The notes under the pieces are model-generated. The model ran no database searches, had not been told where the DNA came from, and saw only the letters and a list, made by a program, of their open reading frames with translations. A stretch of DNA of 64,000 bases from Crossiella cryophila (GTDB lineage: Bacteria; Actinomycetota; Actinomycetes; Mycobacteriales; Pseudonocardiaceae), in contig NZ_JACHMH010000001.1 of the NCBI RefSeq assembly GCF_014204915.1, positions 5,109,501-5,173,500 of the forward strand, written 5' to 3'. Of this stretch, positions 14,040-45,817 are shown one piece after another. The translations under genes were made by a program, and so were the position numbers. How positions within the stretch are numbered: the first letter of the stretch is position 1; the number at the start of each line of letters is the position of its first letter.

Positions 14040-14873
<834 letters not shown>

Positions 14874-14887
<14 letters not shown>

Positions 14888-19022: not shown

Positions 19023-19044
19023 GATTCTTCCTTTCCAGCAAGGA

Positions 19045-19075: not shown

Positions 19076-19078
19076 CGA

Positions 19079-19234: not shown

Positions 19235-19260
19235 GGTGTTCCTCTCTCTTCTCGGGATGG

Positions 19261-19485: not shown

Positions 19486-19581
19486 GATCTTTCTCTCCTT
19501 GGTTTCCGGTTGCCGGGATCAGGACAGGGCAGACAGCGAGGGCAGTTGTCTGCCCAGCGGGGATCCCGGCGGGCCCGGGGT

Positions 19582-21662: not shown

Positions 21663-21692
21663 GCCTCGAAGTCAATCCGCCGATCGGGTTGT

Positions 21693-29753: not shown

Positions 29754-29782
29754 TACGTAGCCGCTACGTGGTCCGCCCGATG
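29754..29782 (+). promoter_or_regulatory. 29-bp palindromic element, copy A (upstream of PucR 2)
   Basis: TACGTAG-CCG-CTACGTG, then 12 nt ending CGATG. The element ends 64 nt before the ATG of PucR 2. The left and right halves form an inverted repeat with 3-bp spacer. The same arrangement with identical spacing recurs at 32511, 33682, 45732 and (minus strand) 40712, each before a gene of the terpenoid locus. It is probably a regulator-binding promoter element. Confidence 0.85.
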
Positions 29783-29846
29783 CCCCGCCACGCCGGGCGG
29801 GAGACCGTCGTGGCTGCCCCAGCAGCACGACGAAGGGACCTCGGCC

Positions 29847-31037
29847 ATGACCCACGCCGTCCGGGACACCGCCGCCAACCGGGTCCGGGAACTCGGCTTC
29901 GCCCTGCTGCGCCGGGCCGACGCGCACACCGAGGAACTCACCGACCTGCTCCAGGACGCCCTGCCGGTGTACCGGTCCGGGCTGGTGCTGGACCGGGCCG
30001 GACTGCGCGCCGCCTGCCGGGACCGGCTACGCGTGGTCTACTCCGCGCTGGCCAGGCGGCCCTGCGCCACCACCCTGTCCGCCGCGGGCATCGGCCGCCG
30101 CCGGGCCGCCGCGGGCGTGTCCCTGGCCACCCTGCTGGAGGCCGCGCACCTGCTGATCGGCTTCATCTGGCGGCGACTGGCCGACACCGCGCTGCACACC
30201 GGATTCGCCGGACCGGCCCTGGCCCACGGCACCCAGCACGCCTGGGACCTGCACGAGGAGTTCGTCCGCGAGCTGGTCCTCGGCTACCAGCAGGAGATCG
30301 CCGCCGGTGCGCTGGAGGCGGGCGCGGCGCACACCGGCACCATGCGCGCCCTGCTGCGCGGCAGCGAACCGGTGATCTCCTGGGCCGCGACCGAGGCCCT
30401 TGGCCTGCCAAGGGAAGGCACCTTCCTCGCGGTGGCGGCCACCGCGGTCGAGGGGGACGCGGCGCGGCTGATCTCGACCCGGTTGCGGGCAGCCGGGATG
30501 TCGTTGGGGTGGACCGAACTGGACGGGGTCGACGCGGGCATCATCGCCACCCCGGCCCGCGCCGAGAGCCTGATCTCCCTGCTGCACGGGCTTTCCGGCG
30601 TCCAGGCCGGGGTGAGCCCCGCCTACCGGAGCCTGACCGGGACCGCCAGGGCGTTCCGGCTGGCCCGCACCGCCCTGGACGCCGGCACCGCGCGGAATCC
30701 GGTGGTGTGCTTCGACTCCGCGCCGCTGGCGATGATCGCGGCGAGTTCACCGGCGGCGGCGGACGGACTCGCCGAGGTGTTGCTGGCGCCGCTGGCCGAC
30801 CTGCCAGAGGTCGAGCGGGAGCTGCTGGTGCGCACGCTCGGGGCCTGGCTGGACGCCGGGGGATCGGCCGGCGCGGCGGGGGAGTTGCTGTACTGCCACC
30901 CCAACACCGTGCGCTACCGGCTGCGCAAACTGCAGGAGCGCACCGGTCGCTCGCTGGCCGATCCCGTGGCCGTCACCGAACTGGCCCTGGCCTACGAGGC
31001 TGGCCGGCGACGGCGTAGGCGGCCTGACGGCTGCTGA
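29847..31037 (+). CDS. PucR/CdaR-type transcriptional regulator 2
   Basis: 396 residues, ATG start with GAAGGGA upstream. It has the same architecture as its two paralogues: LQDALPVYRSGLVLDRAGLRA at the N-terminus, AGVSLATLLEAAHLLIGFIWRRL, then AGVSPAYRSLTGTARAFRLARTAL in the middle, and YCHPNTVRYRLRKLQERTGR as C-terminal helix-turn-helix. The 29-bp palindromic element (29754-29782) stands upstream, so it may be autoregulated or part of the regulon. Its last 65 bp overlap the 3' end of the convergent P450 gene, so the two transcripts are antisense to each other there. Confidence 0.9.
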   Translation: MTHAVRDTAANRVRELGFALLRRADAHTEELTDLLQDALPVYRSGLVLDRAGLRAACRDRLRVVYSALARRPCATTLSAAGIGRRRAAAGVSLATLLEAAHLLIGFIWRRLADTALHTGFAGPALAHGTQHAWDLHEEFVRELVLGYQQEIAAGALEAGAAHTGTMRALLRGSEPVISWAATEALGLPREGTFLAVAATAVEGDAARLISTRLRAAGMSLGWTELDGVDAGIIATPARAESLISLLHGLSGVQAGVSPAYRSLTGTARAFRLARTALDAGTARNPVVCFDSAPLAMIAASSPAAADGLAEVLLAPLADLPEVERELLVRTLGAWLDAGGSAGAAGELLYCHPNTVRYRLRKLQERTGRSLADPVAVTELALAYEAGRRRRRRPDGC

Positions 31038-32346
31038 GCCGCAACCGCAACCCCTGCGGGTGCAGCACCGCGCCCGCGAACGCCTTCACTTCCTGCCCGC
31101 CCTCCCGGCTGAACGTCCAGCGCTGCAGGAAGCTGGCCAGCACCAGGGCGTTGGACAGCATGGAGAAGTTGTCCCCGATGCACTTGCGGGCGCCGGAGCC
31201 GAACGGGATGAACACGTTGCGCGGGTGCGTGGGGCGCAGCCACCGGTCCGGCCGGAACTCCAGCGGGTCCGGGAAAGCGGCCGGATCGCGGTGCATGGCG
31301 GCGAAGCTGTAGAGGAAGTTGCGCCCCACCGGGAACTCCACCCCGCCCAGGGTGACCGGGGTGATGGTCCGCCTGGTCTGGAACCACACCGGGCAGTACA
31401 GCCGCAGGGTCTCCATCAGGGCCCGGTTCAGCTTGCCCAGCCGGGGCAGATCCGCCACCGTCGGCGGCCTGCCCTGCAACACCTCGGCCAGCTCCTCGGC
31501 GATCTCCTGCTCCAGTTCCGGCGCGTTGATCATGGCGTAGAGGAACCAGCTCATGGTGCTGGCCGAGGTCTCGCTGCCCGCCATCAGGAAGGTGACCACC
31601 TGGTCGACCAGCAGCTCGTGCGACAGGCCTGCCCCGTGCTCGTCCCTGGCCGCGATCAGCTGCGACATCAGGTCGGTCGAGTTCTGGCCGGTGTCCAGGT
31701 GCCGGGTGACGGCCGCGCCGACCGCGCCGCGGATGGTGGTCCGCGCGCGCTGGAAGCGGATGTTGGCCGGCAGCGGCAGCTTGTTGAGGAAGTCCGCAGG
31801 CATCAGGGTCTGGCGCAGGATCCCCTTGAGGAACTCCGGCAGCAGGTCGGCGAGACTGACCGAGACCTCGTCGAAGTCGTCCCCGGAGAAGATCGTCTTG
31901 GACATCAGCACCATGGTGAGGCGCTGCAGCTCGGGGTACAGCTCCAGGACCTGACCCTCGGCGTACCGCCCGACCTGCTGCTCGGCGCCCTCGGCCACGA
32001 TGGCGGCGTACTGCCGGAGCGCGGCCTGGCTGAAGGCGGGCTGGATCATCCGGCGCTGCCTGCGGTGCTCGGCCTTGGCGCAGGTCATGAGCCCGTTGCC
32101 GAGGAACAGCTTGACGTGCTCGAAGAAGCGGCCCTTGTCGAACTTGTCACTGTCGGCCGTCAGCACCTGGTGCAGCAGGTCCGGGTTGTTGATCAGGTAG
32201 TACGGCTGCCCGCCGACGCCGATCTCGACGATGTCCCCCAGCGGGGCAAGGGTCTCCAGATAATTGAGCCGCCCCTTGGCCAAGGCCAGTGCGTTGCCCA
32301 GGACCGGAAGCCGATTCGGCGCCTTGACCACCGTCGCGTGTGCCAT
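30973..32346 (-). CDS. Cytochrome P450 of the terpenoid locus
   Basis: 457 residues, longer than typical soluble class I P450s and closer to terpenoid-oxidising enzymes such as the CYP170/CYP183 groups (family impression). The I-helix motif is AGSETSAST, ExxR is ETLR, the PERF-like region is FRPDRW, and the haem loop is FGSGARKCIGDNFSM with the Cys ligand near 400. The start at 32346 has GAGGAG 8 nt upstream. It is flanked by two PucR regulators and lies close to terpene synthase 1, so the likely substrate is the terpene hydrocarbon. Copy B of the 29-bp element lies 165 bp upstream on the divergent side. Its 3' end runs 65 bp into the PucR 2 gene. Confidence 0.93.
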   Translation of the reverse strand: MAHATVVKAPNRLPVLGNALALAKGRLNYLETLAPLGDIVEIGVGGQPYYLINNPDLLHQVLTADSDKFDKGRFFEHVKLFLGNGLMTCAKAEHRRQRRMIQPAFSQAALRQYAAIVAEGAEQQVGRYAEGQVLELYPELQRLTMVLMSKTIFSGDDFDEVSVSLADLLPEFLKGILRQTLMPADFLNKLPLPANIRFQRARTTIRGAVGAAVTRHLDTGQNSTDLMSQLIAARDEHGAGLSHELLVDQVVTFLMAGSETSASTMSWFLYAMINAPELEQEIAEELAEVLQGRPPTVADLPRLGKLNRALMETLRLYCPVWFQTRRTITPVTLGGVEFPVGRNFLYSFAAMHRDPAAFPDPLEFRPDRWLRPTHPRNVFIPFGSGARKCIGDNFSMLSNALVLASFLQRWTFSREGGQEVKAFAGAVLHPQGLRLRLSSRQAAYAVAGQPRRPGPVR

Positions 32347-32510
32347 CTGTGTAGCTCCTCAAGAGCCGTTGTTCCGGGGGATTTGCGAATTCGATCCGAG
32401 CCTGTCAGGAACGGCGATCGGGGTCGATGTACGGCAGAACAAAAAGAGGGACACCGCCGCTGTGCGCTGAAACAACCACGCGGGTTTCCGGCGAATTCCG
32501 GGTTAGGAAG

Positions 32511-32539
32511 TGCGTAGTCGCTACGTAGTCTGCCCGATG
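32511..32539 (+). promoter_or_regulatory. 29-bp palindromic element, copy B (upstream of PucR 3)
   Basis: TGCGTAG-TCG-CTACGTA followed by 12 nt ending CCCGATG. The element ends 31 nt before the PucR 3 ATG. It lies in the 224-bp region between the divergent P450 and PucR 3 genes, so the symmetric part could serve both. The asymmetric CGATG tail points toward PucR 3. Confidence 0.85.
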
Positions 32540-32570
32540 TGCGCACGGCCCAGCTGGATACGCTCCGGGC

Positions 32571-33680
32571 ATGTCGGAGGCAGGGCAGGAACTGGCACAT
32601 GCGACCGAGGAGATCGCCGATACGGTCATCGGACGAATTCGGGCAAGCGTACCTGCCTATCGGGCTCTGGCCGGGTCCGGCGCCGAGGAATTCCGGCAGA
32701 GCATCCGGAGTCACGTTCGATTCGCGCTGGCCGCGCTGGAGTCGGCCGCGGTGCTGGACGTGCCCGACACCCGGGAGGAAGGGCGGCGCTCGGCCGAGGG
32801 CGGGATCCCGTTCGCCGCGGTGCTGGCCGCCTGCCAGGTGGTCGCGGACTGCCTCTGGGAACGGCTGTCGGCGGCGGGGACGCCACTGCCCTCGGCAGCC
32901 AGGATGTGGACCGGCCTGCAGACCTGCGTGCGGCAGCTGGCCCTGGGCTACCAGGAGGAGTCGCTGCACCAGGCCCGCGCCGACGAGCAGCGGCGCACCG
33001 CCCTGCTGGACGCGCTGCTGGCCGGGCGCCTGGACGGTGAGGACCTCAGCCAGGCCGCCGACGTGCTGCGCATCCCGGCCCGCGGCACCTACGCGGTGAT
33101 CGCGGCGCAGGTCCCGGCCATCGGCCGCAACGCGCTGTTACGTGCGGAGACCACCCTGCAGGCCAGCGGCGCGGCCTCGGTCTGGCGGCTCGGCCCCGAT
33201 CTCGAGGTCGGCGTGGCCTGCCTGTCCATCTCGCACGTGCAACCGGGTGAGCTGGCCGAACTGCTGCACGGCCACTGCGCGGGCCCGGTGGCGGTCAGTC
33301 CGGCCTACCACGACCTGCGGGAGAGCGCGGCGGCCCTGCGGCTGGTCACCGAGGACCTCCGGCGGGCGAGCGCCGATCCGCTGGCCGCCGCGATCGCGGC
33401 CGCCCCCGATGTGCTGGCCAGGGTCGCCGAGGTGGTCTTCGCCGAGCTGGCCGGGCTGCCCGTGGCCGAGCGCGCGCTGCTGCTGGACACCTTCGGCGCC
33501 TGGCTGGCCTGCCATGGTTCGGTCGTGGACACGGCAGGCAGCCTGAATTGTCATCCGAACACCGTCTGGTCCCGGCTGCGAAAACTCGAGGAACGCACCG
33601 GGCGATCGCTGACCGACCCGAGACAGCTCGCCGAACTCAGTCTGGCCTATCGCATCACCCGGGAAAACCAATTTCCGTGA
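32571..33680 (+). CDS. PucR/CdaR-type transcriptional regulator 3
   Basis: 369 residues. N-terminal ADTVIGRIRASVPAYRAL, then FAAVLAACQVVADCLWERL, middle VAVSPAYHDLRESAAALRL, and C-terminal helix-turn-helix LNCHPNTVWSRLRKLEERTGRSL. It is the shortest of the three paralogues, and no convincing ribosome site precedes the ATG, so the message may be nearly leaderless or the start misplaced. It is followed within 100 bp by copy C of the 29-bp element and terpene synthase 1. Likely role: control of the terpenoid locus (inference). Confidence 0.88.
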   Translation: MSEAGQELAHATEEIADTVIGRIRASVPAYRALAGSGAEEFRQSIRSHVRFALAALESAAVLDVPDTREEGRRSAEGGIPFAAVLAACQVVADCLWERLSAAGTPLPSAARMWTGLQTCVRQLALGYQEESLHQARADEQRRTALLDALLAGRLDGEDLSQAADVLRIPARGTYAVIAAQVPAIGRNALLRAETTLQASGAASVWRLGPDLEVGVACLSISHVQPGELAELLHGHCAGPVAVSPAYHDLRESAAALRLVTEDLRRASADPLAAAIAAAPDVLARVAEVVFAELAGLPVAERALLLDTFGAWLACHGSVVDTAGSLNCHPNTVWSRLRKLEERTGRSLTDPRQLAELSLAYRITRENQFP

Positions 33681-33681
33681 T

Positions 33682-33710
33682 TACGTAGTGCCTACGTACT
33701 TGTCGCGATG
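33682..33710 (+). promoter_or_regulatory. 29-bp palindromic element, copy C (upstream of terpene synthase 1)
   Basis: TACGTAG-TGC-CTACGTA, then 12 nt ending GCGATG, beginning right after the PucR 3 stop codon. It ends 59 nt before the GTG start of terpene synthase 1. This makes the synthase an independent unit of the presumed regulon rather than part of a PucR 3 operon. Confidence 0.87.
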
Positions 33711-33769
33711 TCCGCCGAACCCGGGCGTGCGCAGACTGGAGACCACGTAAGGTCGTCGGAGGGATTTGT

Positions 33770-34741
33770 GTGCCTATCAGGGATCTAGTTCGCGACTTCG
33801 CCATTCCCGCCATTCCGGTGGCGGCCTGGCACGGACAGGCGGAACACGAGACGAGACGATGGGTGCGCCGGTTCGGAATGGTGCGGGCGCCGGCCGCCTG
33901 CGCGCATTTCGACGCCATTGGCGCTGGCCGGTTGTCCGCGTGGGTATACCCGGAGGCGGCCCTGGAGGTGCGGGGTGTGGTGACCGACTGGCTGTCCTGG
34001 CTCTTCGTCATCGACGACCAGTGCGATGAGGGCCTGCTGGGCCGGGACCCGGTGGCGCTGGACCGGCTGACCGGCCCGGTGCACCAGGTCCTGGACGGCC
34101 GCCGGGACGACCTGCCGCCGCTGGCCGCCGGCCTGGCCGACATCTGCGACCGGGTCAGCCACCTCGGCCCGTGGTGGGCCCGCTACCGCGATCACGTGCG
34201 CGGCTACCTGGACGCCTGCCGCTGGGAGGCGGCGAACCGGGCGGCCGGGCGGGTGCCGGTGCTGGACGCCTACCTGCCGCACCGGCGCTGGGCCGGTTCC
34301 ATGCTGGCCACCCTGGACCTGACCGAACTGGCCACCGGCGACCTGCTCACCGACCAGGAGTGGGCCGATCCGGACTACCAGCAGGCCATGACCGCCGCCG
34401 CCGACATCGTCTGCTGGACCGACGACGTGGTGGCGGTGGACAAGGAGGTCGCCCGCGGTGACGTGCACAACCTGGTGATCGTGCTCTCCACCCGGCACGG
34501 CATCCCGTGGGCGGAGGCGACCCGGCTCGCCGGGGACATGCTGGACCGGCGGGTGGCGGAGTTCCTGGCGGCCGAGACCCGTTTGCTGGCCGCGGATCCG
34601 GCGCGCTGGAGCCGTAACCTGCACGGGCTGCGGGCGTGGATGCGCGGGCACCTGGACTGGGGTGCGGAGACGGCCCGCTACCGCGAGGTCGACCGCTGCG
34701 AGGGCGTGCCGGCCTACATCGAGGAACTGCTGGTCGGATGA
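33770..34741 (+). CDS. Class I terpene synthase 1 with altered NSE triad
   Basis: 323 residues from GTG 33770 (GGAGGG 6 nt upstream). The aspartate-rich metal motif is DDQCDE at about 82-87. The second metal motif, normally NDxxSxxxE, reads DDVVAVDKE at about 218-226: Asn is replaced by Asp and Ser by Ala. The YLPHRRWAG segment holds the diphosphate-sensing Arg region, and a late TARY supplies the usual Arg-Tyr pair. The enzyme should cyclise a prenyl diphosphate after ionisation. The changed triad may alter metal binding or the product, or mark a co-factor-like paralogue. Terpene synthase 2 (45818) keeps the canonical triad. It is preceded by copy C of the 29-bp element. Confidence 0.9.
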   Translation: MPIRDLVRDFAIPAIPVAAWHGQAEHETRRWVRRFGMVRAPAACAHFDAIGAGRLSAWVYPEAALEVRGVVTDWLSWLFVIDDQCDEGLLGRDPVALDRLTGPVHQVLDGRRDDLPPLAAGLADICDRVSHLGPWWARYRDHVRGYLDACRWEAANRAAGRVPVLDAYLPHRRWAGSMLATLDLTELATGDLLTDQEWADPDYQQAMTAAADIVCWTDDVVAVDKEVARGDVHNLVIVLSTRHGIPWAEATRLAGDMLDRRVAEFLAAETRLLAADPARWSRNLHGLRAWMRGHLDWGAETARYREVDRCEGVPAYIEELLVG

Positions 34742-34742
34742 G

Positions 34743-34779
34743 GTGCTGGGGCGGCGCCGGATCGACGCCGCCCCAGCAC
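34743..34779. terminator. Bidirectional terminator between terpene synthase 1 and ispG
   Basis: A perfect 14-bp inverted repeat (GTGCTGGGGCGGCG and its complement) with a 9-nt loop begins 1 nt after the synthase stop and ends 10 nt before the ispG stop on the other strand. It should end both convergent transcripts. Confidence 0.92.
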
Positions 34780-34789
34780 GTTCCGCTGT

Positions 34790-35941
34790 TCAGCTCGCGG
34801 TCACCACGGGCACGGCGCCCTCGACGGGCTCCATCTCCTCGGCGATCCGCATGGCCTCCTCGATCAGGGTTTCCACGATCTGGTGCTCGGGCACGGTTTT
34901 GATCACCTTGCCCTTGACGAAAATCTGGCCCTTGCCATTGCCGGAGGCCACACCCAGATCCGCCTCGCGAGCCTCACCGGGGCCGTTGACGACACAGCCC
35001 ATCACCGCCACCCGCAACGGCACCTCCATGCCTTCCAGCCCGGCGGTGACCTGTTCGGCGAGGGTGTAGACGTCGACCTGGGCGCGGCCGCAGCTGGGGC
35101 AGGAGACGATCTCCAGCTTGCGCGGGCGGAGGTTGAGGGATTGCAGGATCTGGGTGGCGACCTTGATCTCCTCCACCGGCGGCGCGGAGAGGGAAACCCT
35201 GATGGTGTCGCCGATACCGCGGGACAGCAGCGCGCCGAAGCCCACCGCGGACTTGATGGTGCCCTGGAAGGTCGGCCCGGCCTCGGTGACCCCCAGGTGC
35301 AGCGGGTAGTCGCACTGTTCGGCGAGCAGTTCGTAGGCGCGGACCATGACGACCGGGTCGTTGTGCTTGACGGAGATCTTGATGTCGTGGAAGTCGTGTT
35401 CGGCGAACAGCGAGGCTTCCCACAGCGCGGATTCGACCAGGGCTTCGGGGGTGGCTTTGCCGTACTTCTTGAGCAGCCGTGGGTCGAGGGATCCGGCGTT
35501 GACGCCGATGCGGATCGGGGTGCCGGTCTCCTTTGCCGCCTGGGAGATTTCGCCGATCCGGTCGTCGAACTTCTTGATATTCCCCGGGTTCACCCGAACG
35601 GCGGCGCATCCGGCTTCGATGGCGGCGAAGACGTACTTGGGCTGGAAGTGGATGTCGGCGATCACCGGGATCCCGGATTTCCGTGCGATGGCTGGCAAAG
35701 CGTCCGCGTCGTCCTGCGAGGGGCAGGCGACTCGCACGATGTCGCAGCCCGCCGCGGTGAGTTCGGCGATCTGTTGCAGGGTCGCGTTGACGTCGCTGGT
35801 GAGCGTGGTGGTCATGGTCTGGATGGACACCGGGTGATCGCTGCCCACGCCGACTTTGCCGACCTGGAGCTGCCGGGTCTTCCGGCGTTCGGCGAGCACC
35901 GGTGGCGGCAGGTCCGGCATGCCGAGGGAAACCTGGCTCAC
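34790..35941 (-). CDS. ispG: 4-hydroxy-3-methylbut-2-en-1-yl diphosphate synthase
   Basis: 383 residues, normal for the short bacterial IspG. The N-terminal TIM barrel has [45 protein letters not shown] and VRVNPGNI. The C-terminal iron-sulphur domain has [12 protein letters not shown] and [17 protein letters not shown], providing the three Cys and the Glu for the 4Fe-4S cluster. IspG reductively converts MEcPP to HMBPP, the penultimate MEP-pathway step. It is last in an operon, with GTGA overlap to dxs. As this is a specialised-metabolite locus, it is probably a second genomic copy that boosts precursor supply (inference). Confidence 0.97.
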
Positions 35942-37743
35942 TGCAACACACCTTCCAGGCGGGACGGGTGCGGGACGGGGGTGCTGCCGAGGTTCGCCCG
36001 CGCGGCCTCGGCGATCGACTCGGCGTCCAGGCCGCAGGCGGCCAGGATGTCGCCGCGGGCGCCGTGGTCCAGGAAGGCCGGTGGCACGCCGAGGTTGTCC
36101 ACGGGGGTGCGGACCCCGGCCGCACCGCAGGCCTGGGCGAGCGCGGTGCCCAGGCCTCCGGTGCGCACCCCGTCCTCGACGGTCACGACGAGGCGGTGTC
36201 GTGCGGCGAGGTGGACCAGGGTCGGGTTGATCGGGAGCAGCCAGCGCGGGTCGACCACGGTGACGCCGAGGCCGTCCTGTTCGAGCAGTGCGGCGGCCTG
36301 GAGCGCGGGTTCGGCGAGCACCCCGGCGGAGACGATCAGCACGTCCAGTGGGGTGTGCTCACCGCGGTAGAGCACGTCCATGCCGTCCATCCGGTTGCGG
36401 GCCTTGATCGCCGGACCGGCCGCGGCCTTGGGGAAGCGCAGCGCGGTCGGGCCGGGGTCGTCCACCGCCTCGGCGAGCAGCGCCGCCAGCTCCACCGGAT
36501 CCCGTGGCGAGGCCACCCGCATACCCGGCACCTGGCCGAGCAGCGCGAGGTCCCAGACACCGTGGTGGGACGGGCCGTCCGGGCCGGTGATGCCCGCGCG
36601 GTCGAGGACGAAGGTGACCGGGAGCTGGTGCAGGGCGACGTCCATGAGGACCTGGTCGATGGCGCGGTTGAGGAAGGTGGCGTACAGGCAGACCACCGGG
36701 TGCAGCCCACCCATGGCGAGCCCGGCGGCTGAGGTGACGGCGTGTTGTTCGGCGATGCCGACGTCGAAGATCCGGTCCGGGAAACGCTGGGCGAAGCGGT
36801 GCAGGCCAACGGGTCGCAGCATCGCCGCGGTCAGCGCGACCAGGTCAGGGCGGGTCTCGGCGAGTTCGGTGATGTGCCTGCCGAACAGGCTGGTCCAGCT
36901 CGGCGCGCCACCGGCCTTGCCGGTCCCGGTGGCCGGGTTCAGCACGCCGATGCCGTGCATCCGGTCGGCCTCGTCGTTCTCCGCGTGGGTGTAGCCGCGG
37001 CCCTTCTCGGTCACGCAGTGCACCACCACCGGCTGGTTCAGCTCGCGGGCGTGCCGCAGCGCCGTCTCGGTGGCCCGCACGTCGTGGCCGTCGATCGGGC
37101 CCAGGTAGAGGAAACCCATGGTGTGGAACAGGTTCCGGCCACTGGCCGCGCCGGATCGGAGGGCGCCGAGGTGTTCGGCCAGGCCGCCGATGGTCGGGTC
37201 GTAGGAGCGGCCGTTGTCGTTGAGCACCACGATCACCGGCCGCCCCGAGCCACCGAGGTTGTTCAGCGACTCCCAGGCCAGGCCGCCGGTCAACGCGCCG
37301 TCGCCGATCACCGCGACCACCCGCCGGTCGGTCTCCCCGCGCAGCTGCTGGGCCTTGGCCAGGCCGTCCGCCCAGGCCAGCGAGGTGGAGGCGTGCGAGT
37401 TCTCCACGTGGTCGTGCTCGGATTCCGCGCGCTGCGGGTACCCGGCCAGCCCGCCCGCCACCCGCAGGCTGTCGAACTCCTGCTGCCTGCCGGTGAGGAT
37501 CTTGTGCACGTAGGACTGGTGCCCGGTGTCGAAGATGATCCGGTCCCGCGGCGAGTCGAACACCCGGTGCAGTGCGATGGTCAGCTCCACCACGCCCAGG
37601 TTCGGGCCGAGGTGCCCGCCGGCCCGGCAGACCTTCTCCACCAGGAAGTGCCGGATCTGCCCGGCCAGCGCGGGAATCTCGTTGGCGGGCAGGGATTTCA
37701 GGCGGTGCGGGTCGACGATGTGCGTCAGCGGTGTGGTGGTCAT
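35938..37743 (-). CDS. dxs: 1-deoxy-D-xylulose-5-phosphate synthase
   Basis: 601 residues. Family landmarks: [34 protein letters not shown], the thiamine diphosphate motif GDGALTGG with a following [16 protein letters not shown] with the catalytic Glu of the pyrimidine domain, and [12 protein letters not shown]. It condenses pyruvate and glyceraldehyde 3-phosphate, the first and flux-controlling step of the MEP pathway. It is coupled by 4-bp overlaps to the IspH-like companion and to ispG. A dedicated dxs next to prenyl diphosphate and terpene synthases is a known device in terpenoid clusters for raising precursor supply. Confidence 0.97.
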
Positions 37744-38363
37744 GGACGCCCCTGTTCGTTGGTGGTCAAGGATTCGACGCGGGTGGGACCGAGACCGCCG
37801 ATCGCCGCGAGCACCCCGGTCAGCAGCTGCCGCCGGGTGTCGCGGTGCAGCAGCAACCCGACCGTGCCCGCCTCGGCCAGCCAGTCCGCGCGCACCTGCC
37901 CGGCCGAGCGCACCAGGTGCGCCGGCACGTCCCGGTACGGGGTGAGCGCGGCCGGGTCCAGCACCAGCAGCAGGTCCACCGGCTCCGGCCGGTCCAGCAG
38001 CAGGACCCGGCGCGGGCGCAGCGCGGCCGACCACTCGCGCACCACCGCGGCGGTGGCGGCCAGGGTGGCCGGATCGTCGGCGTTCGCGGCCGCGCCCAGC
38101 CCGACCGGCCGCCCCCGGTCGTCCACCCAGGAGGCGGTGAACCCGAGCGAGCGGTGGTCGCCGCACTCGTCGTCGTAGGTCAGCAGGCCCCGGCCCGCGC
38201 TCAGTCCGAGCCTGCGCAGACTCCCGGCCAGCAGCGGCGCGGCCGGACAGGGGGCAAGGCCACCGTCGGTGCGCAGGCCCTCGGCGATCACCGCCCCGCG
38301 CTGAACCGCTTGCGACGCCACCGAAACCGGGCGGAAAGCACTGTGGTGCCGCAACGAGTTCAC
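37740..38363 (-). CDS. IspH-derived companion protein lacking the iron-sulphur core
   Basis: 207 residues from GTG 38363, overlapping the ispH stop by 4 bp. Residues about 24-128 align with the unusual N-terminal extension of the adjacent Isp[20 protein letters not shown] against [19 protein letters not shown], then ADDPATLAA and VREWSAAL against the equivalent IspH segments. Residues about 129-207 ([22 protein letters not shown]) align with the IspH C-terminus. The catalytic middle is absent, and none of the three cluster-binding Cys motifs remains. It looks like an ispH duplicate that lost its active core by an in-frame deletion yet kept a clean reading frame and tight coupling. This suggests a structural or regulatory partner of IspH. 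The function is unknown. Confidence 0.8.
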
Positions 38364-39586
38364 GACTCCACACCCCGGCGCACGGCAGCGGGCAGTCCGA
38401 AGTGGACGGTCTCCCTGGTGACCTCCCGTTCGGTGCGGGTGATCTCGCCGAGCCCGCCGAGCGCGGTGACCACCTCCTCGACCAGTGCGGGCGGTGCGGA
38501 GGCGCCCGCGGTCAGGCCGAGCACCCGCACCCCGGCCAGCCACTCCGCCCTGATGTCGCCGACCCGGTCGATGAGCTGGGCCGGAGTGCCGTTGCGGCGG
38601 GACAGTTCGACCAGGCGGACGGAGTTGGAGGAGTTGGTGGAGCCGACCACCAGGACCAGGTCGGACTCGTCGATGACGGCCTTGAGCGAGTTCTGCCGGT
38701 TCGTGGTGGCGTAGCAGATGTCGTCGCTGGGCGGCTCGTGCAGCAGCGGGAACTTCGTCCGCAGTGCCTCGACCACCTCGGCGGTCTCGTCGATGGCCAG
38801 GGTGGTCTGGGTCAGGTAGGACACCCGGGCCGGATCGGCGAGGTCCAGCCCGACCACGTCCTCGGGGGTCTCGACCAGGATGGTGGCCTCGGGGGCTTCG
38901 CCGAGGGTGCCTTCGACTTCTTCGTGTCCGGCGTGGCCGATGAGCACGATGGTGTCGCCGCGGGCGGCGTAGCGGCGGGCTTCGGCGTGCACCTTGGTCA
39001 CCAGTGGGCAGGTGCCGTCGATGACCTCGAGGCCGCGCTGGGTGGCCTCGGTGCGGACGGCGGGGGAGACGCCGTGGGCGGAGAAGACCACGGTGGAGCC
39101 GTCGGGGACCTCGTCGAGTTCGTCCACGAAGATCGCGCCGCGGGCGGCCAGGTCCTCGACCACGTAGGTGTTGTGCACGATCTGCTTGCGCACGTAGACC
39201 GGGTTGGTCCGGGTTTCCAGGGTGCGTTCGACGATCTCGATCGCCCGTTCCACGCCCGCGCAGAAGGACCGTGGACTGGCCAGCAGGATCGAGCGCGGAC
39301 CGGCCACCGCGGACCACTCTGCGAGGACCTGCTCGGCGGCGGCCAGCGCGACTGGATCGTCGGGCGGGGCGGCGACGCCGAGTCCGGCCGCGCCCAGCGC
39401 ACCCCGGTCGATCGTGGCGTGCCGGGCGTGTTCGTCCAGGTGCAGTGGGCCGGTGCGGACCGGCAGGCCGCGGCGGCGCAGATCACCGGCCAGCAGCAGC
39501 GCGGCGGGCGCCGGGATCTCGCCCGCTTCGGTGCGCAGGGCGGTGGCGACCAGCACGCCGCCCGTCCCGTGGTGTGGGGAGTTCAT
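38360..39586 (-). CDS. ispH: 4-hydroxy-3-methylbut-2-enyl diphosphate reductase with N-terminal extension
   Basis: 408 residues against about 310-330 for ordinary IspH. The catalytic part starts near residue 98 ([18 protein letters not shown], Cys about 109) and continues with [24 protein letters not shown] and [13 protein letters not shown], which give the three cluster Cys. [15 protein letters not shown] and [28 protein letters not shown] also match. The first roughly 97 residues form an extra domain ([30 protein letters not shown] and onward), which recurs in the downstream companion protein. The enzyme converts HMBPP to IPP and DMAPP. AAGGAG lies 10 nt before the ATG. It is second in the operon after the prenyl diphosphate synthase. 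Confidence 0.95.
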
Positions 39587-39606
39587 GGGGTTCTCGCTCC
39601 TTGGAG

Positions 39607-40647
39607 TCAGTGCCTGCGGCGGGTGATCAGGTTGGCCAGGTCGAGCAGCTGCCGGGCCGCCTCCGGTTCGCAGGCCGCCGACTCCAGGCACTCCACCGCC
39701 GAGGCGACCTGCCGCCCCGCCTCCCGCTGCGTCCAGCGCCTGCCGCCTGCGGCCTCGACCAGGTGCCGCATGTGGTCCAGCTCGTGCGCCTCGATCGGCT
39801 CCGGCCGGGCGTAGTAGGCGGCCAGTTCCCTGGACTGGGCGGTGTCCGCGGCCAGCGCGGCGGCCACCGGCAGCGACTTCTTCCGGTTGCGCAGGTCGTT
39901 GCCCGCGGACTTGCCGGTGACCTCGGGTGCGCCCCAGATCCCGAGCAGGTCGTCCACCAGCTGGAAGGCCAGCCCGATGTGATCGCCGAAGCGGCGCAAC
40001 GCGCTCACCCGCGCCTCATCGGCCCCACCGGCCAGCGCGCCCAGCGCGCAGGAACCGCCCAGCAGCGCGCCGGTCTTGCCGGCCACCATGGCCAGGCACT
40101 CGTCAAGGCGCACCGAGGTCCGCTGCTCGAAGGCCAGGTCCGCGCTCTGCCCGTCGCACAGCGCCAGCACCGAGTCGTTGAGCCAGCCCACCGCGATGCT
40201 CGCGGTCGCGCCACCGCCGTCGGCGAGCACCCGGGAGGCCAGCGCGAGCATGGCGTCGCCGAACAGGATGGCGTCGGAGGTGCCGAACACCGTCCACGCG
40301 GTCGGCCGGTGCCGCCGCACCGGATCGCGGTCCATCACATCGTCGTGCACCAGGGAGAAGTTGTGCACCAGCTCCACCGCCACCGCGGCGGGCACCGCGG
40401 CCTCGGCCGTGCCACCCACGGTCAGCGCGGAGAGCAGCACCAGCGCCGGCCGGATCGACTTGCCGGGGTTGGCCCGGATCGCGCCGCCGTCCTGGTCCCA
40501 CCAGCCCAGGTGGTAGCCGGCGCCCCGGCGCATCAGCGGCGGCAGCGTGTCCACCGCGCGGCGCAGCGCGGGTTCGATCAAGGACCGGCTCCAGGCGAGT
40601 ACGTCCTCGGCGGAGCGTTCCCCAGTCACCGCGGTGGTCAAGGTCAT
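39607..40647 (-). CDS. Polyprenyl diphosphate synthase (GGPP-type)
   Basis: 346 residues from ATG 40647, with GAGGAG 8 nt upstream; GTG 40656 is in frame but too close to that site. First aspartate-rich motif: HDDVMDRD, with DDVMD at 102-106. Second: [27 protein letters not shown], the form common in actinomycete GGPP synthases. The fifth residue before the first motif is Phe and the fourth is Ser, with no insertion in the motif, a pattern usually linked to C20 chain length (inference; C15 is not excluded). It is the first gene of the MEP operon, preceded by copy E of the 29-bp element. It should supply the substrate for one or both terpene synthases. Confidence 0.93.
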
Positions 40648-40711
40648 GCGGTCCACTCCTCACAGAAAGTGATCGGTTGGGGACCACCGTCGCGGCGAGC
40701 GGACGAGCGGA

Positions 40712-40740
40712 CATCGGCGGAACCACGTAGGAGGTACGGA
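40712..40740 (-). promoter_or_regulatory. 29-bp palindromic element, copy E (upstream of prenyl synthase/MEP operon)
   Basis: Read on the minus strand: TCCGTAC-CTC-CTACGTG followed by 12 nt ending CCGATG, 64 nt before the start of the prenyl diphosphate synthase. The right half and the CGATG tail fit the other copies exactly; the left half is degenerate. It places the whole MEP operon in the presumed regulon. Confidence 0.75.
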
Positions 40741-40963
40741 CTTTCCCCCGAGTTGGTTTATTGATCATCACATTTGGTCAGTGCGGACGGTGAGCGGCGC
40801 TCTACCCGCTTGGCGGTACCGGCGTGACTCCCGGCCGTCGATTTGGGATCGATTTGGTGGCGCTGTCACGGAGCAGAGTCGGCAGCCCCCATCGGGTAGC
40901 GTCGACATTCAATTTGCCAATGGCGGTAACCGCTCCGTACTGCGTTATTCGGCCGGTTAACTT

Positions 40964-40991
40964 CACGTGCAAATTGCGTGTCCGCCCGATG
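40964..40991 (+). promoter_or_regulatory. Possible degenerate copy of the 29-bp element, upstream of LAL regulator 1
   Basis: CACGTGC-AAA-TTGCGTG followed by TCCGCCCGATG, 72 nt before the GTG start of LAL 1. The tail matches that of copy A (CCGCCCGATG), but the half-sites are diverged and the spacing is 1 nt shorter. The rest of the gene-free region from 40741 to 41063 is comparatively AT-rich, with no other structure I can name. Confidence 0.35.
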
Positions 40992-41063
40992 TCTCTGGTA
41001 ATTTTTCGCGGTCCTGGGCGCTTGGATATGCACAAGAGCCGTATCGCAACCGGAGGTCCACTG

Positions 41064-43364
41064 GTGTTGGGAATGCTGCCCGCCGAGCTGACCAGCTTCG
41101 TGGGGCGCAGGAAGGAGCTGGCGGCCATCCGGCGGCTCATCGCGGGCACCAGGCTCCTCACATTGACCGGACCGGGCGGAGTGGGCAAGACCAGGCTGGC
41201 GATGCGCGCCGCCGAACAGATGCGCCGGGCCTATCCGGACGGGGTGCACTTCGTCGCGCTGGACTCACTCAGCCACGGCGACCTGCTGGCCGCCACCATC
41301 GCGGCCGCGCTGCGCCTGCCGGACACCACCGCGGACGCCACCGCGCACCTGATGGAGTTCCTGCGGGCGAAACAGCTGCTGCTGGTGCTGGACAACTGCG
41401 AGCACGTGATCGACAGCTCCGCCCGCCTGGTCGCCAGGCTGCTGGCCGAGGCGCCCGAGGTGCGGGTGCTGGTCACCAGCAGGCAGGTGCTGGAGGTCGA
41501 GGGCGAGCAAACGCTGCTGGTCCCGCCGCTGGACGTGCCCGAGGTCAGCAGCAGACGGGAGGCGGCCAAGCTGGACGTGCTGGCCCTGTTCGCCGACCGG
41601 GCCGCCGACTCGGTGCGCGGCTTCACCCTGGACGAGCGCAACTGGAACCTGGCCCTGCGCATCTGCGCCAAGCTGGACGGGATGCCGCTGGCCATCGAAC
41701 TGGCCGTGGCCTGGCTGCGCACCCTGGCCATCGAGGAACTGGCCACCGAACTCGACCGCGGCCTCAACCTGCTCGACCACGGCAGCCACCAGGCGCCGCG
41801 GCGGCAGCGCACCCTGCGCGCCACCATCCAGTGGAGCTACGAACTGGCCGACACCGCCGAGCAGCTGCTCTGGGCCCGGCTCTCGGTGTTCAGCGGCGGC
41901 GCCACCCTGGAGGCCATCGAGGCGGTCTGCGGTGGCGAGGGCCTCAACCCGGACGAGGTGCTCGGCTTGCTCGCCTCGCTGGTGGACAAGTCCATCGTGC
42001 AGCGCGACGACCAGCACGAGGTGCCCCGGTTCCGGATGCTGGAGGCGGTCCGCCAGTTCGGCGCCACCCGGCTGGCCGCCGCCGACACCGGGGAGACGCT
42101 GCGGGCCTGGCACCGGGACTACTTCCTGGCCATGGCCAGGGGCGCGGAGGCGGACTGGTTCGGCGGCCGCGACCAAGCCGGGGTCTACCGGCGATTACGC
42201 GGGGAACACGCCAACCTGCGGGCCGCCCTGGAGTTCAGCCTGAGCAACCCCGGAGCGGCCGAACTGGGCCTGGAACTGGTCACCCGGCTGCACGTGTACT
42301 GGATCAACTGCGGCCTCTACGGCGAGGGCCGCCGCTGGCTCAGCGAGGCGCTGAGCAGCGCCCAGCCCACCGCCCGGTTCTACGCCAAGGCGCTGTGGGT
42401 CTGCGCCTACGCCAACAACGCCCTCGGCGACACCGCCACCTCCAAGGAACTCGGCCGCCAGGCGCTGACCTGGTCCTACCGCACCGGCGACCGGGCAGCC
42501 CACGGCTGCGCGCGGGCGGTGCTCGGCGGGGCCGCCCTGCTCGACGGCGAACCGGAGCAGGGCGTGCGGCTGTGCGAGTCGGCCCGGTCCTACCTGGACG
42601 GACCCGGCGAGACCACCTGGTGGCTGATCGCCGAGTCGATCCTGCTGATCTCGATGGCCTTCGGCGGCGCCGCGCAGGCCACCCTCAACCGGGCCAAACA
42701 CGCCCAGACCGTTGGCGAGGCCACCGGTCAGGAGTCCGCGCTGGTGCACGTGCGCTACGCCCTGGCCCTTGCCCTGCACAAGGCCGGTCGGCACGACGCC
42801 GCGGTGCGCCAGTGCCAGGCGGGCATCCGGCGGGCCAGGGACTTCAACGACGTGCTCTCGGTGTGCATGTTCGCCGAACTGCTCGCCTGGATCGCCGAGG
42901 CCGCCGGCCGGTTCCGGCAGGCCGCGCAGCTGCTCGGCGTGGTCGAACAGGTGTGGCCGCTGCTGGGCGGCAAGGCGATGCTGGGCTCGCCGATGTGGGT
43001 CCGTCCGCACGACGACTGCCTGCACCGGACCCGCACCGCACTGGGCGCCGAGGCGTTCCAGACCGGCTACGCCAAGGGCATGGCCAACAGCGGCGACCTG
43101 CGGCAGGCGGTGGCTTTCCTGCTGGAGGAACGCCGCCGCGGCACCGGCGTGCCACGTGCGGAGAACCAGCTGACCAAGCGGGAACAGCAGGTGGCCGAGC
43201 TGGTCGCGCAGGGGCTGACCAACCGGGAGATCGCCGCCCGGCTGGTGGTCGCGCCGCGCACCGCGGAGACCCACGTCGACCACGTGCTGGCCAAACTGGG
43301 CTTCACCTCCCGCACCCAGATCGCCAGCTGGATCGCCGGACAACCCGCCGACGAGCGGGCCTGA
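41064..43364 (+). CDS. LAL-type LuxR-family regulator 1 (ATPase plus HTH)
   Basis: 766 residues from GTG 41064, with GGAGG 7 nt upstream; the frame is open further upstream without a good start. The N-terminal nucleotide-binding domain begins MLPAELTSFVGRRKELAAI, has Walker A GPGGVGKTRLA near 40 and LLLVLDNCEHV as Walker B. The middle is helical TPR-like repeat (about 350-680). The C-terminal LuxR helix-turn-helix is LTKREQQVAELVAQGLTNREIAARLVVAPRTAETHVDHVLAKLGF. Such large ATP-binding regulators commonly act as pathway-specific activators. Its stop is 1 nt from the stop of the convergent paralogue at 43366. Location between the MEP operon and terpene synthase 2 suggests a role in the terpenoid locus. 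Confidence 0.92.
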   Translation: MLGMLPAELTSFVGRRKELAAIRRLIAGTRLLTLTGPGGVGKTRLAMRAAEQMRRAYPDGVHFVALDSLSHGDLLAATIAAALRLPDTTADATAHLMEFLRAKQLLLVLDNCEHVIDSSARLVARLLAEAPEVRVLVTSRQVLEVEGEQTLLVPPLDVPEVSSRREAAKLDVLALFADRAADSVRGFTLDERNWNLALRICAKLDGMPLAIELAVAWLRTLAIEELATELDRGLNLLDHGSHQAPRRQRTLRATIQWSYELADTAEQLLWARLSVFSGGATLEAIEAVCGGEGLNPDEVLGLLASLVDKSIVQRDDQHEVPRFRMLEAVRQFGATRLAAADTGETLRAWHRDYFLAMARGAEADWFGGRDQAGVYRRLRGEHANLRAALEFSLSNPGAAELGLELVTRLHVYWINCGLYGEGRRWLSEALSSAQPTARFYAKALWVCAYANNALGDTATSKELGRQALTWSYRTGDRAAHGCARAVLGGAALLDGEPEQGVRLCESARSYLDGPGETTWWLIAESILLISMAFGGAAQATLNRAKHAQTVGEATGQESALVHVRYALALALHKAGRHDAAVRQCQAGIRRARDFNDVLSVCMFAELLAWIAEAAGRFRQAAQLLGVVEQVWPLLGGKAMLGSPMWVRPHDDCLHRTRTALGAEAFQTGYAKGMANSGDLRQAVAFLLEERRRGTGVPRAENQLTKREQQVAELVAQGLTNREIAARLVVAPRTAETHVDHVLAKLGFTSRTQIASWIAGQPADERA

Positions 43365-43365
43365 C

Positions 43366-45648
43366 TCACTGCCGCTGCTGGGTGACCCAGGCCGCCAGCC
43401 GGGCCCTGGAACTGAAGCCGAGCTTGCCCAGCACGTTGTTCACGTGCGTTTCCGCGGTGCGCGGGGTGATGCCCAGGTTCTTGGCGATGTCCCGGTTGGA
43501 CAGCCCGCCTGCGACCAGTTCGGCGACCTCCCGCTCCCGCTTGCTCAGCTGCACCACCTCGGCCGTGGTCACCTCGGCGGCCGCGGTCTCGCCGAGCACG
43601 TGCGCCACCGCGTCCGGCAGCCCGGCCGCGATCCGCACCCCGCGCTCGAAGGCCAGCTCGAAGGCCTGATCACCGAGTTCCTTGCGCAGCTGCAGCTCAC
43701 ACGCCTCGTGCCGGGAACCCCATGGCGGGCCGCCGAACTCCGAACTGCGCCCGATCAACGGCCACACCGCGTGCGAGACCCCGAGCAGCTCGGCCGCGGG
43801 CTCCGGCCGTCCGGCCGACTCCTCCACCCAGGCCCGCAGGTCCAGCAGCATGCCGGCGGCCAGCAGGTCGTTGAGCGTGCGGGCGATCCGCAGCCCGGCG
43901 TCCACCTCCCGGAGCGCCACCTCGTGCCCGCCCTGGATCCAGGCCAGCAACGCGGCCGAGTAGTGCGCGTAGGAGCCTGCCCAGCGCTCGCCGTGCCGGG
44001 CGCAGACATCGCGGGCCTGCTCGGTGAAGGCCAGCGCGTGCTGGAACTCGCCGCGGAAGGTGGCCACCATCGACCGGGTGGCCAGGGTCAGACCGAGGAA
44101 GGTCAGTTCACCCACCGCCTCGAACCGGGACAACGCCTCATCGCAGTAGCCCTGCGCCTGCTCGAAGGCCCCCTGCTGCAGCGTCGCGGTGCCCAGCACC
44201 AGCAGCGCGTGCGCCAGCGTCGGCTCGTCGCCGTGCTCCCTGGCCCAGCCCTCGGCCGCGCGGGCCAGCCGGATCCCGGCCTCGAACTGCCCCATGATCA
44301 CCGCGGCGTGCCCGTTGGCCCACAGCCCGTGCGCCCGGTCCCGGCTGGGTTCGGGATTGCTCGCCAGGGCCAGGTCCAGCCAGCGCCGGGCCTCGCCCAG
44401 CGCACCGCAGCCGAGCCAGAAGTAGGTCATGGACACCGCCAGCTCCAGCCCGGCCGCCGGATCCTCGCCCTCCAGACCGAAGAGCATGGCCGCGCACAGG
44501 TTGTCGTGCTCGGCGGTCAGCCGCTGGTAGACCCGCTCCTGCTGCCCGCCGGAGAGCCAGTCGTGCGCGGCCCTGGTGGCCAGCGCCCGGTAGTGCGCGG
44601 CGTGCCTGCGCCGGATCCGCCGCTCGTCACCGGTGGCGCCCAGTTTGAGCTGCCCGAACTGGCGCAGCGTGCCGAGCAGGGTGAACCGCGCGGCCGGGCG
44701 GCCGATCCGGCTGGTGATCACCGACTTGTCCACCAGCCGGGCCAGCAGATCGATCAGCTCGTGCGTCTCCACCGGCTCGCCCTCATACAGCGCGGCCACC
44801 GCGGCCAGGTCGAACTCGCCGGTGAAGATGGACAGCCGCTCCCACAGCAACCGCTCGTCGGCCGAGCACAGCGTGTAGCTCCAGTCGATGGTGGCGTAGA
44901 GCGTCTGCTGCCGGGTCGGCGCGCTCCGGTTGCCCCGGTTGAGCAGCTGGAAGGTGCGGTCCAGCCTGCGCAGCAGCTCCTGCGGGGTGAGGATGCGCAG
45001 CCAGACCACCACCGCCTCGATGGCCAGCGGGATGCCGTCCAGGGTCCGGCAGATCCGCACCACCAGCTCGGCGTTGCCCGCGTCGACGACGAAGTTGGGC
45101 ACCACCGCGGCGGCCCGGTCGGCGAAGAGCTGCACCACCGGCTGCCTGCGCACCTCGGCCGGTTCACCCAGCTCAGGCACCTCCAGCGGCGGCACCGGCA
45201 GGATCTGCTCGCCGCGCACACCCAGGATGTGCCGGGAGGTGAGCAGGATCCGCACCCCCGGCGAGGTGGTCAGGATCAGCGCGACCAGTTCGCCGCAGGA
45301 TTCGGTCAGGTGTTCGGCGTTGTCCAGCAGGAGCAGCAGCTGCTTGTCCCGCAGGTGCTCCACCAGCTGCGCGGACTGGTCCAGCGAACCGTCACTGAGG
45401 CCGAATGCGGAGGCGACCGCGGACAACAGCAGTTCAGGTCGGCGAACGGGGGAGAGATCGAGGAAGCAGACCCCATCGGGAAAACCACGCCGCACTTCTG
45501 TGGCGACCCGGAGAGCGAGCCGGGTCTTACCCACTCCACCAGGGCCGATGAGAGTCACCAACCGGCCACTCGCCAGTAGTGCGCGGGTATCGCTTAGTTC
45601 GCGGATGCGACCAACGAAGCTGGTGATATCCGCCGGAAGTCGTGACAT
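43366..45648 (-). CDS. LAL-type LuxR-family regulator 2 (ATPase plus HTH)
   Basis: 760 residues, a clear paralogue of LAL 1. The N-terminus is MSRLPADITSFVGRIRELSD, Walker A is GPGGVGKTRLALRV, Walker B is LLLLLDNAEHL, with a TPR-like middle. The C-terminal HTH is LSKREREVAELVAGGLSNRDIAKNLGITPRTAETHVNNVLGKLGF. The ribosome site is GGGAGG, 10 nt before the ATG. Copy D of the 29-bp element lies 84 bp upstream in the region shared with divergent terpene synthase 2, so the symmetric part could act on both promoters. The two LAL genes face each other tail to tail without room for a terminator. Confidence 0.92.
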   Translation of the reverse strand: MSRLPADITSFVGRIRELSDTRALLASGRLVTLIGPGGVGKTRLALRVATEVRRGFPDGVCFLDLSPVRRPELLLSAVASAFGLSDGSLDQSAQLVEHLRDKQLLLLLDNAEHLTESCGELVALILTTSPGVRILLTSRHILGVRGEQILPVPPLEVPELGEPAEVRRQPVVQLFADRAAAVVPNFVVDAGNAELVVRICRTLDGIPLAIEAVVVWLRILTPQELLRRLDRTFQLLNRGNRSAPTRQQTLYATIDWSYTLCSADERLLWERLSIFTGEFDLAAVAALYEGEPVETHELIDLLARLVDKSVITSRIGRPAARFTLLGTLRQFGQLKLGATGDERRIRRRHAAHYRALATRAAHDWLSGGQQERVYQRLTAEHDNLCAAMLFGLEGEDPAAGLELAVSMTYFWLGCGALGEARRWLDLALASNPEPSRDRAHGLWANGHAAVIMGQFEAGIRLARAAEGWAREHGDEPTLAHALLVLGTATLQQGAFEQAQGYCDEALSRFEAVGELTFLGLTLATRSMVATFRGEFQHALAFTEQARDVCARHGERWAGSYAHYSAALLAWIQGGHEVALREVDAGLRIARTLNDLLAAGMLLDLRAWVEESAGRPEPAAELLGVSHAVWPLIGRSSEFGGPPWGSRHEACELQLRKELGDQAFELAFERGVRIAAGLPDAVAHVLGETAAAEVTTAEVVQLSKREREVAELVAGGLSNRDIAKNLGITPRTAETHVNNVLGKLGFSSRARLAAWVTQQRQ

Positions 45649-45731
45649 ACCTAATTCACCTCCCGCACCTCCGCCCGCAGCCTACGCAATTCTCCCCGAT
45701 GCGGTCAGGGCTGACCGGAGGAAGTGCGAAA

Positions 45732-45760
45732 TACGTAGTGACTACGTGGATCGCCCGATG
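45732..45760 (+). promoter_or_regulatory. 29-bp palindromic element, copy D (upstream of terpene synthase 2)
   Basis: TACGTAG-TGA-CTACGTG, then 12 nt ending GCCCGATG, 57 nt before the proposed TTG start of terpene synthase 2. It sits between that gene and the divergent LAL 2 gene. The ATG inside the CGATG tail is in frame with the synthase but has no ribosome site, and the corresponding ATG at other copies is out of frame. It is probably not a start codon. Confidence 0.85.
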
Positions 45761-45817
45761 ACGTGCCTGGTCAAGGCTGGCGACTCTGGGACAGCGCTGA
45801 AGGAGGCGGTTGCGATT

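Follow-up and report, generated by a model that had tools for sequence, protein, structure and literature searches.

A 29-bp palindrome-CGATG element as a probable promoter module of a terpenoid regulon in Crossiella cryophila and its association with LAL regulators

Introduction

Large ATP-binding regulators of the LuxR family (LALs) are present in many actinomycete natural-product clusters, and a few reports describe the sites at which such proteins act. In Rhodococcus jostii TMP1, the 788-aa LAL TpdR, which has an N-terminal ATPase and a C-terminal LuxR helix-turn-helix (HTH), activates the promoter PTTMP; this promoter carries two 7-nt inverted repeats 4 nt apart between -45 and -28, and a change of T-33 to A within an arm abolished expression (PMC6099782). 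In that report the inverted repeat is regarded as a possible hairpin, and a 15-nt direct repeat is proposed as the TpdR site (PMC6099782). SCO6993, a LAL of Streptomyces coelicolor that acts as a repressor, was footprinted on palindromic promoter sequences for which the authors found no consensus (PMC9628970), and the same source quotes the MalT box as GGA[TG]GA. Furthermore, in the PimR/SARP-LAL hierarchies a LAL-like regulator activates the gene of a second regulator (PMC5930380). Here we analyse a 64,000-nt stretch of Crossiella cryophila (NZ_JACHMH010000001.1, positions 5,109,501-5,173,500, forward strand; hereafter the window), in which a 29-bp element precedes five transcription units of a terpenoid locus. 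Our comparison with relatives suggests that this element is probably an activator-dependent promoter module which is read by one or both of two LAL proteins encoded in the same locus, LAL1 and LAL2.

Results

The element consists of a 17-bp palindrome, TNCGTAS-N3-CTACGTR, followed by N7 and CGATG, and this layout is identical in all five copies of the window. We re-read the copies on the plus strand before the regulator genes PucR2 (29754-29782, with the palindrome at 29754-29770 and the -35-like CGATG at 29778-29782) and PucR3 (32511-32539), before terpene synthase 1 (TS1; 33682-33710) and before terpene synthase 2 (TS2; 45732-45760), and on the minus strand before an operon of a polyprenyl synthase and methylerythritol phosphate (MEP) pathway genes (40712-40740), where the element lies within the region shared with the divergent LAL1 gene. 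These are the positions and strands given in a preliminary description of the window. The 12 nt given there as the distance from palindrome to CGATG hold for the end of CGATG, which itself begins 7 nt after the right arm. Recounted distances from the end of the element to the start codon are 64 nt (PucR2), 59 nt (TS1), 64 nt (prenyl synthase) and, if TS2 starts at the in-frame TTG at 45818, which is its likely start codon, 57 nt, so that the earlier figure of 57-64 nt for four copies and 31 nt for PucR3 stands. Domain matches also bear out the targets named earlier: PucR proteins with HTH_30, two Terpene_syn_C_2 proteins, and a polyprenyl synthase followed by IspH, DXS and IspG. None of the elements is directed at PucR1, LAL1, LAL2 or a P450 gene of the same locus.

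Tight matches to the palindrome are confined to this locus. With up to two mismatches, TNCGTASN3CTACGTR gave nine matches in the window, corresponding to five places of which four are read from both strands; shuffled sequences gave a mean of 1.04, and nine was reached in none of 100 shuffles. The exact palindrome occurs in the 10.06-Mb genome only at the five window places (reversed-pattern control: 0), which extends the earlier statement that the window holds no further perfect copy to the whole genome and leaves no sign of many copies at other sites. At two mismatches the genome yields 111 matches versus 163 for the control, that is, chance level, and therefore only tight matches are informative. 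When up to three mismatches were allowed, the full element was found six times in the genome, namely as the five copies and the reverse reading of the TS1 palindrome (control: 0).

Conservation was assessed in related genomes, which are cited by genome labels (G) and fetched-region labels (L). Among 390 genomes of the family, the 27-base form CGTASN3CTACGTN8CGATG was present in two, C. cryophila with five places and its congener G001 with one (control: 0). Scanning 54 kb of G001 with a matrix revealed strong elements before the orthologues of PucR3 (48% protein identity), the prenyl synthase (75%) and TS2 (71%); the element is thus conserved in the terpenoid locus of this relative, as the preliminary description had proposed to check by a motif search. 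Before PucR3, the layout and the 31-nt gap to the ATG are identical in both species. At the TS1 orthologue (74%), the right arm and CGATG are kept and the left arm has moved by 1 bp. The PucR3 orthologue of G001 (L028 8593-9447) stops before the HTH and TS1 starts almost immediately after it, and the loss of the HTH may also have taken part of the TS1 operator. The elements persist in G001 despite this loss and despite the lack of a one-to-one PucR2 orthologue in the 54-kb region. A search of the five genomes of the genus for the full element, at most three mismatches being tolerated, gave six matches in C. cryophila (control 0), seven in G001 (1), one in G003 (1) and none in G002 and G004. 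The G001 matches include two looser ones at 8078654 and 8076533 (three mismatches each) and one at 8088281 (two mismatches) upstream of a hydrolase and a squalene-hopene-cyclase-like gene. Moreover, a second locus of G001, at a distance of 0.38 Mb, carries an exact pattern match in front of another polyprenyl synthase gene; a terpene synthase and LAL genes are found in its vicinity, and the LAL there is a shortened 404-aa STAND-GerE protein. No clear element was detected in the fetched stretches around other TS1 homologues of the family (38-39% identity; G091, G146, G115, G023), where one weak match scored 12.4. When about 85,000 genomes were searched for the N3 form, with no mismatch allowed in the left arm and the own and near genomes possibly skipped, eight stretches were returned, none from a related organism judging by title alone.

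Since the strict N3 pattern finds only C. cryophila and G001 within the family, the N4 spacing, which was learnt from the neighbourhoods of LAL genes, is needed to follow the element further. The relaxed pattern CGTAN{4,5}CTACGTN8CGATG (spacing 3 or 4) gave 20 matches in 14 of 386 family genomes versus two for the control. Outside the two home loci there are 13 such places, 12 in other genera and one in G001, and the fetched stretch contains an NB-ARC-type LAL at 10 of them. Because seven of these places represent one orthologous locus, we also counted by lineage, which leaves a LAL link in four of five. A LAL at E 1e-20 was found in none of 45 other loci (278 kb). Furthermore, neither BLAST of predicted open reading frames (ORFs) nor a six-frame HTH profile search detected a PucR at any of the 13 places, while the profile search recovered all 26 expected PucR frames of its control, including the three PucR genes of the window and those of all 20 PucR regions described below. 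Genes in these comparisons were called by a simple script based on ORF length and GC content by codon position.

To complement this pattern-based view, we examined regions of relatives that were chosen by protein and not by motif: 60 around LAL homologues, which cover 66 of 74 non-home matches (8 left out), and 20 around PucR homologues (20 of 22). Up to 17 strong LAL homologues occur in one genome. In the LAL regions, the inverted arms ACGTA/TACGT are found with a spacing of 6 at four places and of 5 at one, and with any other spacing from 0 to 19 at no more than one place each; the 20 PucR regions contain no such inverted pair. Likewise, CTACGT is followed by CGATG at a spacing of 8 in four LAL-region cases (three intergenic, one inside a predicted gene), never at 0-7 or 9-13, and twice at 14. 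Six LAL regions also contain a PucR HTH, and in three of them the element precedes the PucR (HTH_30) gene in whole or in part: CGATG is missing from the L154 copy, which does have the palindrome, the left arm is missing from the L158 copy, which has the right arm and CGATG, and the copy in L146 ends in CGACG. The presence of the element before PucR genes in these three further LAL loci makes such genes look like targets. Single-word statistics were less distinctive. TACGTA occurs 26 times in 509 kb of LAL regions, once in 143 kb of PucR regions and six times in 278 kb of a wider background. Under a Markov model, TACGTAG is not over-represented in the LAL regions (23 versus 22.1 expected), because its sub-words are enriched too. 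With so modest an excess, the case for a LAL is built on the spacing, the composite structure and the gene context. A matrix built on the home sites performed poorly: the 29-bp model gave no match in the LAL regions and one in the PucR regions and the 17-bp model four and none, compared to 1-7 and 0-4 for permuted matrices, a low yield that we attribute to the N4 spacing and variable arms, the spacing-aware count having come afterwards. A different palindrome, TGTGACA-N7-TGTCACA, which resembles a CRP-type site, lies close to one LAL gene in each of the five genomes of the genus (L114, L116, L118, L120, L121).

Downstream of CGATG, a -10-like hexamer recurs at a nearly fixed distance. NANNNT begins 20-22 nt after CGATG in all 15 aligned sites, which none of 2000 shuffles reached (average of the best three-offset window, 4.3), and the stricter [TG]ANNNT does so in 9 of 15, again in none of 2000 shuffles. 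The shuffles preserve base content only; moreover, the offset was spotted on the home sites before testing, and the first letter was relaxed from T/G to any base after the data had been viewed. The set takes one member of each orthologous set (g25, G064/G076, G010/G025), omits the hydrolase site of G001 (CGACG) and includes L158, which lacks the left arm. Some of the 15 sites are orthologous, and NANNNT is present at all six sites outside the home loci. A looser composite pattern matched the LAL regions 11 times; five of the seven intergenic matches fit the -10 rule, compared to one of the four inside genes. Omitting two of these five fitting sites, which come from loci used in setting the rule, three of five fresh intergenic sites fit versus 125 of 1843 ordinary CGATG sequences. 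Because NANNNT follows at this distance in every aligned site, CGATG is probably the -35 element, which would place the centre of the palindrome near -52 relative to the predicted transcription start site (TSS). The predicted -10 hexamers on the plus strand are GACCGT for PucR2 (29803-29808, at offset 21 after CGATG; TSS ~29815), TACGCT for PucR3 (32559-32564; TAGGAT in G001), CAGACT for TS1 (33732-33737; TSS ~33744) and GACTCT for TS2 (45782-45787; TSS ~45794; GACGCT in G001); on the minus strand, GACGGT is predicted for the prenyl synthase operon (40686-40691; TSS ~40679) and is identical in G001. For PucR3, the predicted TSS coincides with the A of the ATG at 32571. As this ATG lies 31 nt past the element in both species, at the expected transcription start, the PucR3 mRNA is probably leaderless. 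A comparable spacing of 32 nt is seen in G236 and G242 ahead of a small gene that encodes a product similar to the DUF5999 protein of G230. L211-L217, all from the same genus, have the element flanked by a LAL gene on one side and, on the other, by small ORFs encoding either a DUF5999 protein or a short MTIDSAP-type product, and the copies in G236 and G242 show the leaderless-type spacing.

Both LAL genes are located between the prenyl synthase and TS2. LAL1 (40824-43364, plus strand; true start probably downstream of 40824) and LAL2 (43366-45648, minus strand) encode proteins of 846 and 760 aa that share 43% identity and are 70% and 66% identical to their G001 orthologues, respectively. Both match NB-ARC/AAA (STAND) ATPase domains, with GPGGVGKT/S in their alignment, and carry GerE (LuxR) HTH domains (E 1.8e-16 and 8.6e-16), which in LAL1 is C-terminal; the HTH of LAL2 can be aligned with DNA-binding NarL (GerE domain, PDB 1je8). 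The three PucR genes (HTH_30) are all on the plus strand: PucR1 (28563-29744), PucR2 (29847-31037) and PucR3 (32571-33680), the latter two separated by the P450 gene (30973-32346, minus strand). TS1 (33770-34741) and TS2 (45818-46750), both on the plus strand, encode class I terpene synthases. Class I terpene synthases usually carry NDxxSxxxE; TS1 shows TDDVVAVDKE at this place, and its second metal site may be unusual. The apparent prenyl synthase operon on the minus strand comprises the polyprenyl synthase (39607-40647) and the MEP genes IspH (38360-39691), DXS (35938-38373) and IspG (34790-35941). The prenyl synthase scores above the cut-off of the NCBIfam model 'family 2 encapsulin nanocompartment cargo protein polyprenyl transferase' (465 versus 450), and none of the scanned window genes was recognised as encoding an encapsulin shell. 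Where the window has MEP genes, the prenyl synthase of G001 is followed by a mevalonate operon (L028 11373-17933, L041 878-3965) with GHMP kinases, diphosphomevalonate decarboxylase, an FMN-dependent enzyme (an FMN_dh match, read as type 2 isopentenyl diphosphate isomerase), HMG-CoA reductase, HMG-CoA synthase and a KAS III-like protein. The terpenoid locus borders on a class V lanthipeptide-like cluster (13221-24385), in which LxmK is accompanied by a HopA1-family protein, a flavoprotein, an M16 peptidase-like protein and ABC transporters.

Discussion

The confinement of exact copies to one locus, the orthologous copies in G001 and the fixed phase to a -10-like element make the reading of the element as the operator-promoter of a dedicated terpenoid regulon, already put forward in the preliminary description, well supported. 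That description had looked for the reader among the three PucR and the two LAL proteins. The comparison favours the LALs and suggests that PucR2 and PucR3 are targets rather than readers. Since the 54-kb region of G001 has no one-to-one PucR2 orthologue and its PucR3 lacks the HTH, PucR1, LAL1 and LAL2 are the candidates that both species share, and we consider it likely that LAL1, LAL2 or both read the element and thereby drive the five terpenoid units. The observed site layout, its conservation, the association with LAL genes and the -10 signal are consistent with the following mechanism. The palindrome TACGTAG-N3-CTACGTR (N4 in relatives) would be the operator for a dimer of LAL GerE domains, CGATG, 7 nt downstream of it, would take the place of the -35, and a weak -10, NANNNT, would begin 20-22 nt later. 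With the dyad centre ~52 bp before the predicted TSS and right above the -35, a bound activator could recruit RNA polymerase; it is this position, together with the weak -10 and -35, that points to an activator. The STAND ATPase, upon binding ATP and an inducer, might then jointly turn on PucR2, PucR3, TS1, TS2, the prenyl synthase and the precursor-pathway genes behind it.

Several observations weigh against assigning the element to a LAL. Neither LAL gene of the window is itself a target of any element, and PucR1 is intact in both species and could be the reader at the home locus. Among the 10 LAL-linked outside places, seven represent a single orthologous locus of one genus, and a member of this locus, L143, contributed to the definition of the N4 pattern. 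At the remaining three of the 13 outside places, no NB-ARC LAL is encoded within the stretch that was fetched: G025 encodes, 2.4 kb from the element, a protein of 908 aa whose HTH is LAL-like, in G076 the stretch ends at the contig end, and in G211 a trypsin-like gene follows the element. Outside the family, a class-wide sample of 393 genomes yielded three places versus four for the control. Moreover, the excess of TACGTA in the LAL regions over the wider background is only 2.4-fold, and three of the six LAL regions that contain PucR HTHs (L163 with two of them, L132 and L129 with weaker ones) show no such element before them, L129 having a lone TACGTAG near the start of the PucR HTH frame. 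The type of the recognition helix (T versus other) is only weakly tied to the element (p 0.06, 0.06, 0.29 and 0.047 in four tests, with 4 of the 60 regions dropped because the script did not locate the HTH).

Alternatively, a PucR protein, most likely PucR1, might read the palindrome and control PucR2, PucR3 and the pathway genes; PucR1 shares 67% identity with the intact G001 PucR and has no element of its own, as might be expected of a top regulator, and the element stands before PucR genes of the window and of G001 and, complete or incomplete, of three other loci. We nevertheless regard this as improbable, given that none of the 13 outside places has a PucR HTH, that the 20 PucR regions show no inverted pair and a single TACGTA, and that the PucR3 of G001 has lost its HTH. 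More probable, yet still unlikely, is that CGATG belongs to the LAL operator instead of being a -35, and is contacted by a further subunit of a LAL oligomer. STAND regulators form oligomers, and CGATG is as constant as the palindrome; its location 19-21 bp ahead of the -10-like hexamer, close to -35, speaks against this proposal, which is compatible with a LAL as reader in any case. An alternative sigma factor that recognises the left arm as -35 and CGATG as -10 would find them at a normal spacer of 17-18 bp, with CGATG identical in all six sites compared first. Such a core promoter would leave unexplained why the arms are palindromic and why their spacing is 3 or 4 while the right arm stays fixed relative to CGATG; moreover, a second hexamer follows 20-22 nt beyond CGATG and matches the leaderless-type starts of PucR3, and a Pfam scan of 30 window ORFs revealed no sigma factor domain, so that we consider it very unlikely. 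Finally, three PucR genes and two terpene synthases hint at duplications within the locus, and the copies might in principle stem from recently duplicated promoter segments, or from chance, without any regulator. This is hardly credible, because the 29 bp are kept while the sequence around the elements differs, orthologous copies persist in G001 despite diverged flanks, and relatives of the element occur in other genera.

Returning to the LAL as the favoured reader, whether TACGTAS-N3/4-CTACGTR-N7-CGATG-N19/21-NANNNT is a general promoter code for the NB-ARC LuxR ATPases of the family is, in our judgement, an evenly balanced question. If it is, LAL regulators would switch on a neighbouring gene via this module, at times a PucR gene as a second tier, the targets of orphan LAL proteins could be read from sequence, and the MEP pathway in one species and the mevalonate pathway in another would be under the same switch as the terpene synthases. 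This difference in precursor pathway sits behind a conserved switch. A rigid and searchable operator-promoter would furthermore allow targets, start sites and leaderless mRNAs to be predicted, and might provide a handle for waking silent terpene clusters.

How does the element compare with the sites of described regulators? The NarL heptamer is TACYYMT with a 2-bp spacing. The arms of the element, TACGTAG with a spacing of 3 in the window or 4 in relatives, differ from a NarL-type operator, although NarL shares its HTH family with LAL2 and also binds inverted heptamers (PMC6099782). MalT is, like the LALs, a large ATP-binding LuxR-type activator, but it is described as using direct repeats of another sequence (PMC6099782), and by eye GGAKGA is absent from the five 29-bp elements. 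None of the four sites printed for SCO6993 (PMC9628970) resembles TACGTAG-N3-CTACGTA. Our literature search, largely of papers free of subscription, found no paper naming an operator like this element. The nearest described case is TpdR, with the qualification that the 7-4-7 layout of PTTMP was matched to the element by us and not by the TpdR authors. The PTTMP arm ATCCGTA, as given by the authors' primers, differs from the arm of the element; a change of C-32 to A, mapped here from the primers, brings it closer to that arm and slightly lowers activity, and a 5-nt deletion in an arm only halves it, so the mutants do not simply follow the consensus of the element. The PTTMP palindrome also lies closer to the transcription start, and the CGATG rule is absent from the TpdR description as far as its accessible text goes. 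At the level of circuitry, binding in the PimR/SARP-LAL hierarchies is to heptameric direct repeats, according to the title of the report, and the second tier is PAS-LuxR and not PucR (PMC5930380), but the order in which one regulator activates the gene of the next is like the LAL-over-PucR tiering that we propose for the terpenoid locus of C. cryophila.

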